Of a DNA stretch of 64,000 bases, positions 24,652-41,076 are shown piece by piece (position 1 is the stretch's first letter; each line of letters opens with the position of its first letter). The position numbers and the translations under genes are program-made. This DNA comes from an uncultured Bacteroidota bacterium (GTDB lineage: Bacteria; Bacteroidota; Bacteroidia; Chitinophagales; Chitinophagaceae): contig CAIUZK010000225.1 of assembly GCA_903903635.1 (NCBI GenBank), positions 1 to 64,000 on the forward strand, given 5' to 3'. Below the pieces are notes generated by a model. That model saw nothing but the letters and a program-made list of their open reading frames with translations, searched no databases and was not told where the DNA came from.

Positions 24652-24779
24652 GTGGGGGTAATGCGGGGCTAATGGGGTAATGTGGGGTTAATGCGATAAT
24701 GTGATTGAATGTGGGGTTAATGTGGTAATGTGGTGCTAATGCGGTAATGTGGGGTTAATGTGGTAATGTGATTGAATGT
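24652..24779. repeat. degenerate tandem repeat, GGGGTTAATGTGGTAAT type
   Basis: About seven imperfect units built from GTGGGGTTAATGTGGTAAT and GCGGTAAT variants, with a longer-range echo ending TGATTGAATGT, occupy the intergenic space upstream of lipoprotein copy B. The strand is strongly G/T-biased with little C. No reading frame is supported. Confidence 0.75.
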
Positions 24780-34140: not shown

Positions 34141-34276
34141 TGACTGCACAAATAGTAATCTCATCTTTTTCAAAGAGCTTGTGCACAGCAAATTGTTTAC
34201 TCACCAGGACTTTCCATTTTTGCTTTTTATCAAAATTGATGGTGGATAGTTGTAAAAGCGGATTCCACTCAACATT

Positions 34277-34382
34277 CCAACCAATCAATCAACCAACCAA
34301 TCAACCAACCAACCAACCAACCAACTTATCAACCAATCAACTATTCAACTTATCAACCAATCAACATATCAACCAATCAGCC
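34277..34382. repeat. CAAC/CAAT microsatellite
   Basis: About 26 tetranucleotide-like units (ACCAATCAACCAACCAATC and variants, later TTATCAACCAATCAAC) run directly into the -7 box of the rlmI-like gene. A shorter relative occurs at 46590-46620. Copy-number variation would move upstream promoter or protein-binding elements relative to that box. Confidence 0.85.
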
Positions 34383-35594: not shown

Positions 35595-36422
35595 TTATAG
35601 GCTATTTACTGCTGCTCTCAGTCTCACCAGTTTTTGCAGCAGTGGTTCCAGCAGGTCCAGGTGGAGCATGTTGGCGCCATCTGATTTTGCCGTAAATGGA
35701 TCGGGATGTGTTTCTATAAACAGGCCATCGGCACCAACGGCTATGCCTGCCCGCGCTATGGTGGCTATCAGTTCCGGATTGCCTCCTGTTACGCCGCCCG
35801 GTTGGTTGGGTTGTTGCAGCGAGTGGGTACAATCGAGCGCCACAGGCACTTTGAGCGATTGCATTATGGGTATGCCCCTGTAGTCTACTACAAGATCCTG
35901 GTAACCAAACATGGTTCCCCGGTCGGTAAGTATGATCTTGTGGTTGCCGCTTTGCTGCAACTTATCTACTACAAACGCCATAGCCCCGGGCGACAAAAAC
36001 TGCCCTTTTTTTACATTCACTATTTTGCCTGTTTGTGCGGCAGCTACGAGTATATCTGTCTGCCTGCACAGGAAAGCGGGTATCTGCAGCACATCTACAT
36101 AGGCGGCAGCCATCTCCGCTTCACCGGCGGCATGTATATCCGTCACCACCGGCAGGCCAAACGAGTCTTTTACCTTCTTCAATATTTTTAGCCCCTCCTC
36201 ATCGCCAATGCCCGAAAAACTATCCATCCTGCTGCGGTTGGCCTTGCGGTAAGATGCTTTAAAGATGAGGGGCACACTGAGACGGCTGCACATGGCCACC
36301 AGCCGCTCGGCTGTATGCATCATGATCTCCTCACTTTCAATTACGCAAGGGCCTGCCATCAGGAAGAAATTGCTGGCTGCATTTGCCCCCGGGCTGAAAA
36401 GGTCGTTTAGGTAAGGATACAT
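35595..36422 (-). CDS. kdsA: 3-deoxy-8-phosphooctulonate synthase
   Basis: KdsA condenses phosphoenolpyruvate with arabinose 5-phosphate to Kdo-8-phosphate for LPS core. Characteristic motifs are MAGPCVIESE, FKASYRKANRSR, DIHAAGEAE (metal/substrate region), LQIPAFLCRQTD, VNVKKGQFLSP, DRGTMFGY and HSLQQPNQ. No metal-type Cys is seen in the AGPCVIE position other than the conserved one, so I do not call the metal class. The length of 275 residues is typical. Its promoter region is duplicated 3.7 kb away (36431-36472 and 40115-40156). Confidence 0.95.
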   Translation of the reverse strand: MYPYLNDLFSPGANAASNFFLMAGPCVIESEEIMMHTAERLVAMCSRLSVPLIFKASYRKANRSRMDSFSGIGDEEGLKILKKVKDSFGLPVVTDIHAAGEAEMAAAYVDVLQIPAFLCRQTDILVAAAQTGKIVNVKKGQFLSPGAMAFVVDKLQQSGNHKIILTDRGTMFGYQDLVVDYRGIPIMQSLKVPVALDCTHSLQQPNQPGGVTGGNPELIATIARAGIAVGADGLFIETHPDPFTAKSDGANMLHLDLLEPLLQKLVRLRAAVNSL

Positions 36423-36430
36423 AACCGGTT

Positions 36431-36472
36431 AAGTTTATTTTAATTCAAAACTAACTTTTTTGGGATTAGGAA
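36431..36472. repeat. 42-bp direct repeat carrying the kdsA promoter, copy 1
   Basis: Identical over 42 bp to 40115-40156. On the minus strand it holds TAGTTTTG (36446-36453), an exact TAnnTTTG box 23 nt before the kdsA ATG. Similarity continues for a few bases rightwards (GG.GA). Confidence 0.9.
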
Positions 36473-36544
36473 CGGTGAAATAATTGCCAGCAGATGCCGA
36501 AGTTATAATCCTGATTTAGGAAAAATTAAGTCAGTGTCGCAGTT

Positions 36545-36863
36545 GAAGTCACAGCCGGGTAGTCTCTCGATGCGTGGCTTCTGTGCGCAAGCGAGGACTC
36601 GGGGGTAACTCGCGAAGGGTATTGCTCACATCATATTGAAGTCGCGGCCGAGTCTCTCGATGTGTGGCTTCTGTGCGCTAGCGAGGACTCGGGCGCAACT
36701 CACGAAGGGTATTGCTCACATCATATTGAAGTCGCGGCCGAGACTCTCGATGCGTGGCTTCTGTGCGTTAGCGAGGACTCGGGCGCAACTCGCGAAGGGT
36801 ATTGCTCACATCATATTGTAGTCGCGGCCGAGACACTCGATGCGTGGCTTCTGTGCGTTAGCG
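36545..36863. repeat. 90-bp repeat array 1 (3 full units plus a partial)
   Basis: Units start at 36545 (93 bp, diverged), 36638, 36728 (90 bp each) and 36818 (46 bp, truncated). A unit starts GAAGTCGCGGCCGAGTC and ends GGGTATTGCTCACATCATATT. Inside each, TCGCG...CGAGTC...CTCG can pair with CGAG...GACTCG...CGCGA, giving a long imperfect hairpin. The last unit stops after GCGTTAGCG, where sequence leading to the group II intron end begins. Confidence 0.95.
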
Positions 36864-36887
36864 GAGAGTCACCGTGTACCAAAAACT

Positions 36888-36966
36888 AACCGCCGTATAC
36901 CGAACGGCACGTACGGTGGTGTGAGAGGACGGTGAGGGAAATAATCCCTCACCTCCTACTCGATTT
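36888..36966 (+). mobile_element. orphan 3' end of a group II intron (domains V and VI)
   Basis: Domain V-like: 36888-36920, with CCGCCGTA (36890-36897) pairing with TACGGTGG (36912-36919), a two-base bulge (CG) and a short upper stem with a GAAC loop. GTGAGAGGACG follows, then a domain VI-like stem GTGAGGG/CCCTCAC (36932-36938, 36946-36952) and the typical end CTCCTACTCGATT. Domains I-IV and the reverse transcriptase gene are absent; 90-bp repeats lie upstream instead. It is therefore a remnant unable to move by itself. Confidence 0.75.
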
Positions 36967-37077
36967 CAAAGGCATCCTAAGACCGGCCGTTCCTCCTAAA
37001 CATCTTTCTGGCACAAAATTTGCTATACACTCTGCACTGGCCGACGCTAACCATCGGTTGCCAGATACTTTGTTACT

Positions 37078-38553
37078 ATGAAATTATTATCTGCTACCCC
37101 GTACCGCAATTGGGTTTATTTAGGATTATTGGTCCAAATTGTGGCTGCGTGGTTCAGTATAGGCTATCACCATCCCGATGAGCACTTCCAGGTACTTGAG
37201 TTCTGCAATTACAAGCTGGGCCGGTCTCCTGCCTGTGATCTGCCATGGGAGTTTGCGGCTCAGGCGAGGCCTTGCCTGCAGCCCTTTATCGCGTATGGCC
37301 TGGGCCGTGGGCTACAGGTGCTGGGTATGTACAACCCATTTACGCTCGCCTTCCTGCTAAGGCTGATGATGGGGTTGCTGACCTGGTTTGTTACGCGACG
37401 CATAGTGACACTGCTGCTGCCGGATCTGGTGACAAATGCGGGAAAGAAAGCATTGGTATGGTGTGGTTTTTTCCTTTGGTTTGTACCCTATATCGGTGTC
37501 AGGTTTTCAGCCGAGAATATTTCCGGTTTGTTCCTGTTCCTTGCTATCTCATTCTTGCTTTGCCTCAACGATTACCCATACAAAAAGCAATTGCAGCAGC
37601 TGATTGTGGTCGGTTTATTACTTGGCTTTGCTCTTTTTATCCGCATCCAGATAGCGCTTGCGTTGGCTGGTTTATGCTGCTGGCTGTTGTGGTATCAAAA
37701 GTGGCCGCTGCGCAATTGGATAGTATTAACCGTGGCTGGCCTCATAGCCATCATGCTGTGTGTTTGCATAGATCACTGGTTTTATGGAGCCTGGGTATTT
37801 ACCCCATGGAATTATTTCGACCAGAACATTTTCCATCATGTAGCTGCAAAATTCGGAGTCGATCCATGGTGGTATTATTTTACCAAGTTTCTCGATATTG
37901 GTGTACCACCGATAAGCGTAGTATTATTGCCAATATTCTTCGTGGGCATCAGGCAAAAGCCGCTGCACCTATTTACCTGGATAATTATCCTCTTTGTAGC
38001 CGGACATTCTTTCATTGGTCACAAAGAGATCAGGTTCTTATTTCCCGTATCCATCGCCTTTATTTTTCTTGCTTGCGCGGGCTTCGACCGTATAGTACAG
38101 AAGTATCCTGACCGGAAAGTTTTTCGCTGGGCAATACCCTCATTTGCAGCGCTAAATACCATTATGCTTGCAATCAAAATATTTACCCCGGCTCATGAGG
38201 CAATGAAATACTACGAGGTTATTTATAACTATTCCCAAAACCAATATCCGGTGCTCATATCAACAACCGAGTCGCCCTTCAAACTGGTAGGACTGTGTAT
38301 CAATTTTTACCAACCCCGGCACATCGAAGAGCAGACGGTTGCAACCCGTGAACAACTGGACACCATACTGCACAACGCAGCTGGCCGGCCGGTACTGTTT
38401 TTCAACAGCCACTTGGCCCCTGATCCCATACTCCGCAATTTCCGCACAGAAAAGGTGTACTGCATCCTTCCCGGCTGGATGAACCAATTCGATTTTACCG
38501 ACTGGCAGAGCCGATCCTACATCTGGACCATCTACCGCGTTTATCCGTTATGA
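37078..38553 (+). CDS. GT22-type mannosyltransferase-like membrane protein
   Basis: About 10-12 membrane helices with, in the first luminal-type loop, HHPDEHFQVLEF (residues 31-42), the catalytic HPDE-type motif of GT22 (Alg9/Alg12/PIG-B, dolichol-mannose users). GHKEIRFLFPVSI near residue 320 is the second family hallmark. Bacterial members occur in Bacteroidota; donor and acceptor are unknown, probably a polyprenyl-linked sugar and an envelope glycan. It lies alone in the repeat-rich segment; the sequence before the ATG (GATACTTTG) is a near -7 box. Confidence 0.85.
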   Translation: MKLLSATPYRNWVYLGLLVQIVAAWFSIGYHHPDEHFQVLEFCNYKLGRSPACDLPWEFAAQARPCLQPFIAYGLGRGLQVLGMYNPFTLAFLLRLMMGLLTWFVTRRIVTLLLPDLVTNAGKKALVWCGFFLWFVPYIGVRFSAENISGLFLFLAISFLLCLNDYPYKKQLQQLIVVGLLLGFALFIRIQIALALAGLCCWLLWYQKWPLRNWIVLTVAGLIAIMLCVCIDHWFYGAWVFTPWNYFDQNIFHHVAAKFGVDPWWYYFTKFLDIGVPPISVVLLPIFFVGIRQKPLHLFTWIIILFVAGHSFIGHKEIRFLFPVSIAFIFLACAGFDRIVQKYPDRKVFRWAIPSFAALNTIMLAIKIFTPAHEAMKYYEVIYNYSQNQYPVLISTTESPFKLVGLCINFYQPRHIEEQTVATREQLDTILHNAAGRPVLFFNSHLAPDPILRNFRTEKVYCILPGWMNQFDFTDWQSRSYIWTIYRVYPL

Positions 38554-38622
38554 CAAAAAATGATTTCCCAACAATAACACGCCACTCCGTAGCGGTCGGT
38601 GTGCTTTCGCTGGCCGCTGACA

Positions 38623-38646
38623 GGCCGGGTCTTTTTTAGCCCGGCC
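38623..38646 (+). terminator. hairpin after the GT22 gene
   Basis: GGCCGGG/CCCGGCC arms enclose a loop containing a T6 run. A second small stem CACACT/AGTGTG lies at 38720-38736, before the convergent gene end. Termination is plausible for either strand but the T-run is in the loop. Confidence 0.4.
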
Positions 38647-38758
38647 AGGTGGATAGCAAGTAACTGACGTCATCTGGGGCTATAGCCAAGGGGCAGCCAA
38701 TTGCCGACCTGGGGTGTGCCACACTTCGGCAGTGTGATGCATCTACCTTTCATTAGCC

Positions 38759-39649
38759 TTAAAACCCCCACCCCGTTGACGCCGGATAAGGTGGTAATCC
38801 AATTATTGATCTATCCCGGTTTATTGTTGCAATTATAGCCTTGTCTGGCACATATTTTGTCTGGTTCTCCGATCCGGGCAGGAACCAGTAATATTTAGGT
38901 TGCAACCCTGATATGGTGAGACTCCGGTCGAGAGCATAAGCATAGTTGGTCGGGCAAAATTCGCCTCGTTTTATGGCCTTCAATAGGTATTTATCAATCT
39001 TTTTAAAATTGCCGTAGTTATCTATGTGTATTATTTGAGTTCCTCTTGAACCGTTGAGCCATCCTGTCAATGGAGGCATACCATATCTGATGATACAATC
39101 AGAGAGAATTATGAAATTCACTGAATCAATAATGTGCATTTCTTTTTGCAACGCTATGAGCGCTTCATCAGTTTTTCCTTTTGCATTTGCTCTTGTCCTT
39201 ACGTCCTGATCCCTGTCCCTGAGCCAGGCAGTGATGCTATCCACGATTTTGGTGTTTTTCACAGAGAAATCTTTCTCCTTTTTCAACACACATTTGGGAT
39301 GATACAAATGGTTGAACGTTGTCAAGGGCATTGATATCTCTGCGTAATCACCGAGGTACTTATAGACATTGTCCTTCGGATAAATACAGGACAATTCACT
39401 GAAATACATTTTCAGTTTAGTTGTGTCGTTTTTATTAAATGCTATTTTTACCAGGTTAAAATAATGCCCGAACATGCTCTTATCGGAATACAATGCAAGT
39501 GCCTTAAGCAGGTATTTTTCAGCGCTATCGGGATGCTCCTGTTCCAGGTTCATCACTCCCATTATGCCGTTTCTGTATATCTCAATATAATTCTGGGCGA
39601 AGCTTTGTTCTGCTAACAACAAGAGGGCAAATAGTAATAATTTTCGCAT
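38759..39649 (-). CDS. secreted TPR/DUF6624-like protein
   Basis: A signal peptide (MRKLLLFALLLLAEQSFAQ) is followed by TPR-like helices (LEQEHPDSAEKYLLKALALY) and then, from about residue 140, a DUF6624-like block: WLRDRDQDVRTRA, IDSVNFIILSDCIIRYGMPP, a histidine in TQIIHIDNYGN, and YAYALDRSLTISGLQPKYY. The function of that family is unknown. The gene stands alone between repeat-rich spacers; TAGTTTTG just before the ATG may be its -7 box. Periplasmic or secreted location inferred. Confidence 0.65.
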   Translation of the reverse strand: MRKLLLFALLLLAEQSFAQNYIEIYRNGIMGVMNLEQEHPDSAEKYLLKALALYSDKSMFGHYFNLVKIAFNKNDTTKLKMYFSELSCIYPKDNVYKYLGDYAEISMPLTTFNHLYHPKCVLKKEKDFSVKNTKIVDSITAWLRDRDQDVRTRANAKGKTDEALIALQKEMHIIDSVNFIILSDCIIRYGMPPLTGWLNGSRGTQIIHIDNYGNFKKIDKYLLKAIKRGEFCPTNYAYALDRSLTISGLQPKYYWFLPGSENQTKYVPDKAIIATINRDRSIIGLPPYPASTGWGF

Positions 39650-39712
39650 AGTACAAAACTACCGTTTTTATTTTGCTACTGTATTATTTTCTCCGTGCTT
39701 GGCGTTAGCTAT

Positions 39713-39871
39713 GAAGTCGCGGCCGAGTCTCTCGGTGCGTGGCTTCTGTGCGCTAGCGAGGACTCGGGCGCAACTCGCGAAGGGTATTGCTCACATCATA
39801 TTGAAGTCGCGGCCGAGATGCTCTATGCGTGGCTTCTGTGCGTTAGCGAGGACTCGGGCGTAACTCGCGAA
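39713..39871. repeat. 90-bp repeat array 2 (1 full unit plus a 69-bp partial)
   Basis: Full unit 39713-39802, then 39803-39871, truncated after AACTCGCGAA. Same family as array 1, with the GCGGCCGAG start and GCGAGGACTCGGGCG core. It ends two bases before the stop codon of a T9SS tail remnant. Confidence 0.95.
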
Positions 39872-39872
39872 A

Positions 39873-39972
39873 CTATTCCACCAGCACCTTCTCCATCCAT
39901 CTCCCTTTTTCTGTAGTTGCGGTCACTATATACATACCTGGAGCTACATACAGGTTCAACTCCGTTTCTTTA
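39873..39972 (-). pseudogene. remnant of a T9SS sorting tail
   Basis: Read on the minus strand this 100-bp piece encodes ...KETELNLYVAPGMYIVTATT and then GRWMEKVLVE followed by TAG. That is a classic end of a T9SS type A C-terminal domain. Nothing of the remaining protein is present; both sides are 90-bp repeat units whose edges touch it. It is the last visible part of a destroyed cargo gene. Confidence 0.85.
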
Positions 39973-39973
39973 T

Positions 39974-40113
39974 GATGTCGCGGCCGAGTCTCTCGATGCG
40001 TGGCTTCTGTGCGTTAGCGAGGACTCGGGCGCAACTCGCGAAGGGTATTGCTCACATCATGTCTGATGTCGCGGCCGACTCTCTCGGTGCGTGGCTTCTG
40101 TGCATTAGCGAGG
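39974..40113. repeat. 90-bp repeat array 3 (1 full unit plus a partial)
   Basis: Units start with GATGTCGCGGCC at 39974 and 40065; the second stops at GCATTAGCGAGG. The array directly touches copy 2 of the 42-bp kdsA-promoter repeat. Confidence 0.95.
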
Positions 40114-40114
40114 A

Positions 40115-40156
40115 AAGTTTATTTTAATTCAAAACTAACTTTTTTGGGATTAGGAA
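40115..40156. repeat. 42-bp direct repeat, copy 2
   Basis: Identical to 36431-36472, same orientation, with the TAGTTTTG box at 40130-40137 on the minus strand pointing into the repeat array rather than at a gene. The 212 bp that follow to the lipocalin-like gene contain only short frames with no recognisable product. Confidence 0.9.
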
Positions 40157-40368
40157 TGGCGACTATTAAGGATAAAGATAGCTGTCCATTAAAACAGACT
40201 TCCGGGATATTAGTGTATTGGAAAAGAAAGATGTGGCGGAAAACATATTGGGGCAATGCGGAAACGTAAAGGATGGATATGTCTTTTAGTTTAATTTTTA
40301 GTTGCATATATAAAATCAGCATTTTCCTTTTTATCTTTATAGCTAAATGTATGCGTATGATTTCTTTC

Positions 40369-41076
40369 ATGAAATGGTTCGCGCTTTTGTTGTTTGTGGT
40401 TTGTAATTCGTTTTGGAGTAATGCTCAATCCGGAAATATGAATACAGAAAAAGAGCTCTTAGGAACATGGACAGGACAGACAGGTAGTTTCACCTTCAAC
40501 CCCGGTGGTAAGGGTATAGCCAATGGCAGCCCGTTTGAGTATGCTATAAAAGGCAATACGCTTGTTATGGCCGAGGCGGCAGGCTCCTACCAACTGACAT
40601 TCAGTATAACAGGCAATACCCTGAACTTAATGGGCAATGGCACTACCATATCGTTTACCCGCAAGAATGGCAACAGCCCGGCAAAGGGCCAGCCCGGCAA
40701 TATGCACAAGGGCAATGGTATGGAACTGGTGGGCAAGTGGTGCTACCTGACCAGTAACTACAATACGTTAGGTTCGCAATCGAACATTGCATCGACGGAT
40801 GAGTGCGTGGTAATAAATGCTGATGGTACATACACTTACCATATGGAAAGCTACCGGAGCGCCGGCAATAATGGTTCTTACCTGAGCAATGCCACGCAAA
40901 GTAATGACCGGGGTACCTGGAGTTATGACGGGATGAATACCCTCACCGTAAACTCGCAAACGCAGGGACAGGTGGTCTATACCCTGGAGAAGAAAAATCA
41001 TCCCAAAAATGGCGACCCAATGATATTTTTAAATGGCAGGGGGTTTGTTACCTATGGTCCTAAACCGGGCTGGTAG
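40369..41076 (+). CDS. secreted two-domain lipocalin-like protein
   Basis: The signal peptide MKWFALLLFVVCNSFWSNAQ sets the start at 40369; 32 extra upstream codons are hydrophobic noise. Two similar beta-rich halves follow: LLGTWTGQTGSFTFNPGGKG (about residues 28-47) and LVGKWCYLTSNYNTL...CVVINADGTYTYHMES with RGTWSYDGMNTLTV. The L.G.W...F..dGt pattern is that of lipocalin-like/DUF4923-type domains. Probably a periplasmic or surface small-ligand binder; no catalytic residues are evident. It ends directly at the convergent small gene. Confidence 0.65.
   Translation: MKWFALLLFVVCNSFWSNAQSGNMNTEKELLGTWTGQTGSFTFNPGGKGIANGSPFEYAIKGNTLVMAEAAGSYQLTFSITGNTLNLMGNGTTISFTRKNGNSPAKGQPGNMHKGNGMELVGKWCYLTSNYNTLGSQSNIASTDECVVINADGTYTYHMESYRSAGNNGSYLSNATQSNDRGTWSYDGMNTLTVNSQTQGQVVYTLEKKNHPKNGDPMIFLNGRGFVTYGPKPGW

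Follow-up and report, generated by a model that had tools for sequence, protein, structure and literature searches.

We analysed a 64,000-nucleotide stretch of DNA (the window) from an uncultured bacterium of the Chitinophagaceae (Bacteroidota; contig CAIUZK010000225.1 of assembly GCA_903903635.1), in which a 90-bp hairpin-forming unit is repeated in three arrays between positions 36545 and 40114. The reading that we favour, with a probability of roughly 70%, is that the unit is the left half of a non-autonomous mobile repeat of the REP (repetitive extragenic palindrome)/BIME (bacterial interspersed mosaic element) type and of the CGTC-tagged kind, presumably spread by head-anchored transfer by a Y1 transposase. 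This reading is carried by the dispersal of the unit over the genome with one constant edge, by its pairing with a second, inverted hairpin, and by a distinct clade of transposases in related genomes whose genes are flanked by hairpins of the same kind.

The 90-bp unit and its dispersal

The unit consists of a hairpin, which we call H1, and a linker of about 23 bases, and it occurs eight times in the window, in whole or in part, always on the plus strand. Array 1 (36545–36863) has three full 90-bp units and a fourth that is cut after GCGTTAGCG; array 2 (39713–39871) has one full unit and a second cut after AACTCGCGAA; array 3 (39974–40114) has a unit at 39974–40060 and a second, at 40065–40114, cut after GCGAGGA, with its right edge at about 40113–40114 (TAGCGAGGA). 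The left edge of the unit is constant, GA[A/T]GTC..., with GTAGTC in the last unit of array 1. Tandem Repeats Finder reported a period of 90 with 94% matches at 36564–36863, a repeat search of the window recovered seven unit copies at spacings of 90, 90, 2985, 90, 171 and 91, and a covariance model of the unit, built partly from the window copies themselves, found eight places in the window, six complete and two cut. Array 1 lies between divergent reading frames at 35595–36422 (minus strand) and 37078–38553 (plus strand), and arrays 2 and 3 lie between divergent frames at 38759–39649 (minus strand) and 40273–41076 (plus strand). The array is open in one frame, for 75 amino acids, because 90 is a multiple of three.

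The hairpin of the unit can be written as AAGTCGCG-g-CCGAGTC-t-CTCG / CGAG-GACTCGG-g-CGCAACTC. Its body, seen at 39714–39781 on the plus strand, comprises a GTCG head, an interrupted stem, an enlarged loop with a small inner hairpin, and the tail AACTCGCG. The loop is enlarged by about 20 bases, which are themselves able to form a small stem; enlarged loops were also seen in a related genome, G022, beside a transposase. For the unit at 39713–39802, two of 200 shuffled sequences folded as well on the plus strand (z −2.6) and none of 200 on the minus strand (z −4.2); the unit at 36727–36816 folded more weakly, with z-scores of −0.6 (52/200 shuffles) and −2.0 (10/200). Across 22 H1 sequences, 86.1% of the cells pair, against 29–42% when the partners are slid.

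The genome that contains the window (G000) is a draft assembly of 275 contigs that is 98.6% complete. With array 1 as query, we found 27 matches on 20 of its contigs, three of them in the window. With a single unit as query, three of 60 genomes matched, namely this one (24 matches), G011 (4) and G028 (1). In the loci of the window's own genome, 35 of 38 unit alignments start no later than base 7 of the unit (34 of 37 once a duplicate is dropped), and the right ends range from position 46 to 91; the left edge is missing in three copies. Part of the spread at the right end is divergence of the linker; six copies, two each on C93 and C223 and one each on C52 and C19, stop at position 60 and continue into another tail.

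These results confirm what the original prediction had observed of the unit. Its unit positions were borne out by the repeat search and the covariance model, the arrays end where it had placed them, and the constant left and varying right edges that it described recur in the dispersed copies. The predicted hairpin is real, with support from shuffling for one of the two units and weaker support for the other. The period, claimed to be precisely 90 bp, is so within the arrays, except once in the third, where it is 91.

A second hairpin and the composite element

Several of the dispersed units continue into another hairpin in inverted orientation, H2 (CGTCCCCGGCGAGTCTCCGC-TTTTT-GCGGGACTCGCCGG). 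The two hairpins face each other, no more than 250 bp apart and with H2 inverted, at nine places in the genome (C243 twice, C209, C207, C149, C262, C143, C12 with a diverged H2 and C188 with half an H2), and the same pair is found at G011:C120. The complete form, H1–linker–inverted H2, spans about 136–200 bp.

H2-type hairpins were detected by DNA search in 10 of the 35 genomes of the genus, and by a CGTC-hairpin covariance model, R1, in 29 of the 35 (the window's own genome counted both times, with at least 30 R1 matches); 150 candidates a genome were scored, and the R1 copy numbers per genome are lower bounds. Among 28 H2-type sequences, 92.5% of the cells are paired and 7 of the 14 pairs are changed on both sides. 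The compensatory cells number 22, versus 4.9 in shuffled alignments, and none of 500 shuffles was as high in cells or in score.

R1 was built from H2 only and holds no H1 sequence. Scanned over the 64 kb of the window, it matched at 39975–40042, 39714–39781 and 36639–36706, and nothing else up to E 1; the window units are H1 without H2. H1 is thus read as a CGTC-type hairpin with an enlarged loop, and it is a structural homologue of H2. Its membership of the H2 family follows from the R1 matches to H1 units, and the six copies that stop at position 60 provide the link, since they combine a CGTC head with the H1 loop and the H2 tail.

The CGTC head (TGTC and CCTC allowed) is present in most H2 hairpins. 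We collected 97 R1 hits in the loci scanned and removed 17 below 20 bits, 12 without GTC and 20 that repeat a flank. In the remaining 48, which have distinct flanks and were aligned on GTC, the preceding bases are C in 42 (position −1), C in 34, T in 43 (position −3), T in 32 and T in 30, and there is no conservation upstream of position −5. Several of the 12 hits without GTC retain the run of T with an altered GTC. The heads conserved next to the hairpin are TT(T)CCGTC in the H2 types and (A)AGTCG in H1. A conserved head with nothing conserved beyond it is an edge as expected of a mobile element.

Transposase genes between inward-facing hairpins

Y1_Tnp genes are present in 33 of the 35 genomes of the genus, the window's own included. 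Scanning 108 Y1 locus records of the genus with R1 (some are the same gene twice, for example L113/L200), we found inward hairpins within 250 bp on both sides at L199 (G013), L183 (G019) and L196 (G022) only, and the proteins of these three loci form one distinct Y1/HUH group. A profile search added a fourth gene of this clade, in G034, which is again flanked by hairpins at either end. It also recovered a broken remnant in G031, where a hairpin lies on the 3′ side. All four intact clade genes of the genus have inward hairpins on both sides, and in three of them the hairpins are in tandem on one side, with a period of 89 bp in G013. This two-sided inward layout, at up to 250 bp, was seen in none of 44 Y1 loci of the genus that score lower and lie outside the clade. 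The other Y1 loci with R1 hits are L054, which lies in the window's own genome and has an inward hairpin on one side, L158 and L181, where the hits are more than 600 bp away and face outward, and the IS200-like L113/L200 and L215, which lack the inward layout.

The clade proteins of G019, G022 and G034 are 56–61% identical to that of G013. Four clade proteins compared with the NCBIfam family REP_Tyr_transpos score 54–67 bits, below its cut-off of 80. Clade proteins carry NH[VL]H as their HUH motif, and YIHxNP; they lack the WQ that marks subclass 2.6 and is present in many other RAYTs (REP-associated tyrosine transposases) of the genus. A PDB profile search with the clade gave no more than weak matches to transposases (E 0.3). 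In a tree of 82 Y1 proteins, the 32 clade rows group together with support of 77/84; the long-branched RAYTs L194 and L197 fall beside the clade, possibly through long-branch attraction. Dispersed hairpins are present in the same four genomes as the intact clade genes, in G022 of another sequence type. In three of these four genomes the hairpins beside the gene are, on average, nearest to the dispersed hairpins of their own genome (based on 21 dispersed copies; the matches counted in the four genomes number 40, some flanking hairpins among them). This distinct transposase clade probably moves hairpin repeats of this kind.

The clade extends beyond the genus, to 46 of 396 genomes drawn from the order and 30 of 165 genera. 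In 30 order loci, fetched one a genome and 97.8 kb long in all, R1 reached 15 bits 28 times, with one array in L299 accounting for five of the hits; 33 unrelated control loci (274 kb) gave no hit at 15 bits and three at 12 bits. Counted by locus, 15-bit hairpins within 250 bp of the gene face inward in 8 cases upstream and 9 downstream, and outward in 0 and 1. They face inward on both sides in 7 of the 30 loci and on one side or both in 10; when the threshold is lowered to 12 bits, the numbers are 8 and 15, with one outward.

One genome of the order, G106, has clade copies that are nearly identical, which suggests recent mobility. Two of its contigs share a 795-bp hairpin–gene–hairpin stretch that is 97.0% identical, the similarity starting at TTCCC and ending in GGGAA. 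A third contig has 656 bp in common with them (96.8 and 98.6%), a stretch that takes in the left hairpin and the greater part of the gene but not the right hairpin. To the right of the gene the full copies have direct tandem repeats with GGGAA at the outer edge and a varying inner edge; one of these repeats starts inside the gene, at the gene's own GGGAA, and short homology could explain that one. The pattern matches that of the window, with a fixed edge, a variable edge and head-to-tail arrays. On the third contig (G106:C32, position 1528 of L343), the gene is cut near its 3′ end and joined directly to a new left end; this junction lies about 55 bp from the end of the contig and may be an assembly artefact. 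A plasmid search with the G106 protein returned five records, with identity of at most 32%.

Several observations weigh against the reading of the unit as a repeat moved by such an enzyme. The genome of the window, for all its completeness, has no clade gene, and the best match in it is a RAYT on contig C94, at 52 bits. The 29 hairpin-bearing genomes of the genus include only four with an intact clade gene and one with a remnant, so that loss after spreading, mobilisation in trans or gaps in the drafts have to be assumed. The match between genes and dispersed hairpins is also uneven: in G013 the margin is small (0.73 versus 0.72 for two of the three hairpins), in G019 the result rests on one dispersed copy, and in G022 the gene-side hairpins are no closer to the dispersed hairpins of their own genome than to those of others. 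At half of the order loci, even a threshold of 12 bits brings up no inward hit beside the gene, so that either R1 is too narrow a model or the hairpins are missing there, and outside the genus the heads differ (TTCCC, TTACCCC). Near-identical clade copies occur in G106 only, among nine genomes compared internally: two copies in G173 are 90.7% identical over 731 bp and two in G097 85.2% over 671 bp, those of G228 reach 69%, G408 has a 106-bp piece, and G270, G108, G201 and G150 have no DNA similarity between their own clade loci.

The window units themselves add to these difficulties. Their head is AGTCG, not CGTC, and their R1 scores are low, at 21.5–22.8 bits (E 0.0017–0.0037 for 64 kb). Compensation in H1 is weak: only four pairs show changes in both partners, a value that 40 of 500 shuffles equal or exceed, and the covariation term of RNAalifold is almost nil; the H1 structure therefore rests on conservation more than on compensation. 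The compensatory stem changes that the original prediction had proposed to look for are thus weak within the 90-bp unit and strong in its homologue, H2. Finally, no transposition was observed, and there was no empty site among the eight loci that were compared with the window (L018, L143–L149). None of the three flanking window genes was found at these loci, so no empty site is readable there; the reading frame 37078–38553 has matches in 12 of the 35 genus genomes (its own included, four of them weak) and in 33 public loci.

An unlikely alternative on the side of the enzyme is that the repeats of this genome are mobilised by the C94 RAYT and that the new clade is not involved here. This gene is the only stop-free Y1 gene found in the genome, scores 100.5 bits against REP_Tyr_transpos, and has an inward H2 hairpin about 150 bp from its 3′ end. 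However, it has no R1 hit on its 5′ side, leaving an R1 hairpin on one side only, and the two-sided layout is absent from the non-clade Y1 loci of the genus surveyed above. Likelier ends are provided by another inverted sequence, CCACTGGTCGAAG / CTTCGACCAGTGG, which by eye flanks the gene on both sides (L054 1140–2100). Palindromes of the GGAAGCG type also lie around it, and together with the inverted sequence they probably form a second repeat family.

Known systems, other explanations and surroundings

We class the hairpins as a variant of the REP/BIME repeats: they are dispersed palindromes, with an intergenic position checked for the window arrays; they form inverted pairs with a linker at the nine places listed above, two of these with the diverged or half H2; and they have a conserved head 5′ of the hairpin foot. 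We do not count them among CGTC families 1–4. According to Di Nocera et al. (2013, PMC3733652), CGTC-tagged REPs have stems of 8–9 bp that start with A/T pairs, loops of 4–5 and mostly CCA tails, tandem (HT) dimers are negligible, and no dedicated transposase is reported beside them. Our hairpins share with them inverted heterodimers, Bacteroidetes hosts and an unpaired head beside the hairpin that is CGTC-like, with CGTC in most H2 and AGTCG in H1. In contrast, the stem here has 14 pairs, begins with C-G and is of another sequence, the tail is AATCAGGG or ACTCGCG, and the enlarged H1 loop, the direct tandem arrays and the associated transposase are further differences. The original prediction knew of no named family that fits, which is only partly right: the CGTC-tagged REP super-family is the nearest, although its stem and tail are different. 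In the open-licence PMC literature we found no report that joins CGTC repeats to a transposase.

The same source describes TIRtrons/TIRYTs (PMC3733652), which likewise have a RAYT-like gene and terminal inverted repeats that can form families, some of them self-complementary; inspection by eye did not bring out their GGGGWSAS motif in H2, which has GGGGACG. All four intact genus genes have the arrangement of REPtrons, with inward REPs on both sides of a Y1 gene and copies elsewhere, which is not seen in the window's own genome, with its one-sided C94 RAYT. The clade resembles the REPtrons and TnpAREP (RAYT) proteins of Quentin et al. (2018, PMC6006769), especially subclass 2.6 of Bacteroidetes, in having an HUH-Y1 protein of about 180–210 amino acids, a gene flanked at either end by inverted hairpins, and further hairpins scattered over the genome. 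The clade motifs, NH[VL]H ... YIHxNP without WQ, match no row of Table 1 there exactly; set against the motifs of subclass 2.6 (NH[LIV]H, WQ, YIH[QN]NP), it is WQ that the clade lacks. Two further differences from REPtrons are that the clade is a branch apart from the WQ-bearing RAYTs of the genus and that G106 has two near-identical full copies. With IS200/IS605 the clade shares a Y1 HUH transposase, a small element and end hairpins. The end hairpins of IS200 have one orientation, whereas the two here are inverted to each other.

TnpAREP is described as cutting and rejoining single-stranded REP DNA beside the hairpin, leaving a 3′ hydroxyl that may prime copying, and the spread of REPs is still described as poorly understood (PMC8266576). 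By analogy with this enzyme, we infer cleavage that is anchored at the head and terminates variably. A clade Y1 transposase or, failing that, the C94 RAYT would cleave single-stranded DNA at the hairpin head and would then transfer or copy the DNA adjoining the hairpin, each event being anchored at the head and ending at a variable place. Such events would leave fixed left edges, variable right edges and head-to-tail arrays. A more specific proposal, possible but on balance doubtful, is that the undescribed HUH/Y1 clade of the order is the missing cognate enzyme of the CGTC hairpins, acting on inverted ends by head-anchored, one-ended copying; copies made in this way would have one edge in common and the other variable, and would accumulate in head-to-tail arrays. 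The window arrays themselves are probably passive relics now. The original suggestion of a mobile element, REP-like or like a MITE (miniature inverted-repeat transposable element), is supported by the 27 dispersed matches, the sharp heads, the hairpin and the inverted pairing with a second hairpin. Nothing that we saw supports its other suggestion, a reverse-transcribed element; a single-strand DNA element of a Y1/HUH transposase fits better.

It is improbable that the unit is non-mobile intergenic DNA that was simply duplicated in tandem on the spot, through slippage or unequal recombination. The regular 90-bp period and the high identity within arrays speak for such duplication, and the last growth of each array could well be slippage. 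On C275 (L006 1624–1790), an 86-bp head-to-tail duplication consists of a cut unit and 36 bp of neighbouring DNA, which shows array growth taking in host DNA. However, unit matches lie on 19 other contigs, mostly with the same head, and homologous hairpins occur in 29 of the 35 genus genomes. The original prediction had held that an absence of copies elsewhere would point to local duplication, and on this count it stands; the dispersed copies refute local duplication as a full explanation, and for the growth of arrays it is possible.

That the unit is a structured RNA or a transcription signal kept for regulation seems to us very improbable. The hairpin is stable, and both strands of one unit fold better than most shuffles, but a search of Rfam, even with E as high as 10, gave no match that overlaps them, the arrays lie between divergent reading frames and not 3′ of them, and cut copies of the unit are common.

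Downstream of array 1, at 36888–36964 on the plus strand, lies a fragment of a group II intron with domains V and VI only and no upstream domains (Rfam RF00029, 42.5 bits, cut-off 40). The genome has nine RF00029-type matches, two of them below the cut-off, and near the one on C207 (2366–2441) there are an H2, at a distance of about 90 bp, and an H1, at about 520 bp. It is hardly credible, in spite of this nearness, that the units derive from a group II intron with its domains V–VI 25 bp downstream. We rejected an intron origin because the unit matches no group II family of domains I–IV. The 24 bp between the unit and the intron match the flank of two other unit copies (L057 and L062, by eye), and the closeness of hairpins to introns, on two of the nine contigs with an intron match, is in keeping with a common site at which mobile elements collect. 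We read the intron fragment as an element separate from the unit. Integron attC sites and CRISPR were set aside by eye, with no search made.

Between arrays 2 and 3, at 39873–39972 on the minus strand, is the remnant of a 3′ gene end of about 33 codons (...LNLYVAPGMYIVTATTEKGRWMEKVLVE stop). A like gene end (...GRWM[DE]KVLVE stop), which we take to be typical of type IX secretion tails, adjoins two other unit copies (L057 near 3600 and L062 near 1260); the gene end thus stands beside three unit copies, as if unit and gene end had been copied together. A 48-bp sequence at 36431–36478 (plus strand), upstream of the reading frame 35595–36422, recurs with 96% identity at 40115–40162 (plus strand), where it directly adjoins the cut unit that ends array 3. 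Between the two copies lies a 3.6-kb segment with all three arrays; they have no other match in the genome and may mark how the segment arrived. Other tandem repeats of the window lie at 24657–24770 and 34265–34379 (19/48-bp and 8/12/16-bp units). The region has the look of a site where debris of mobile elements has gathered.

A transposase clade with hairpins at both ends of its genes offers a concrete enzyme–substrate pair for CGTC-type repeats. The clade could stand midway between insertion sequences and domesticated REPtrons, and arrays with one fixed edge suggest a mode of copying that is open to direct search.

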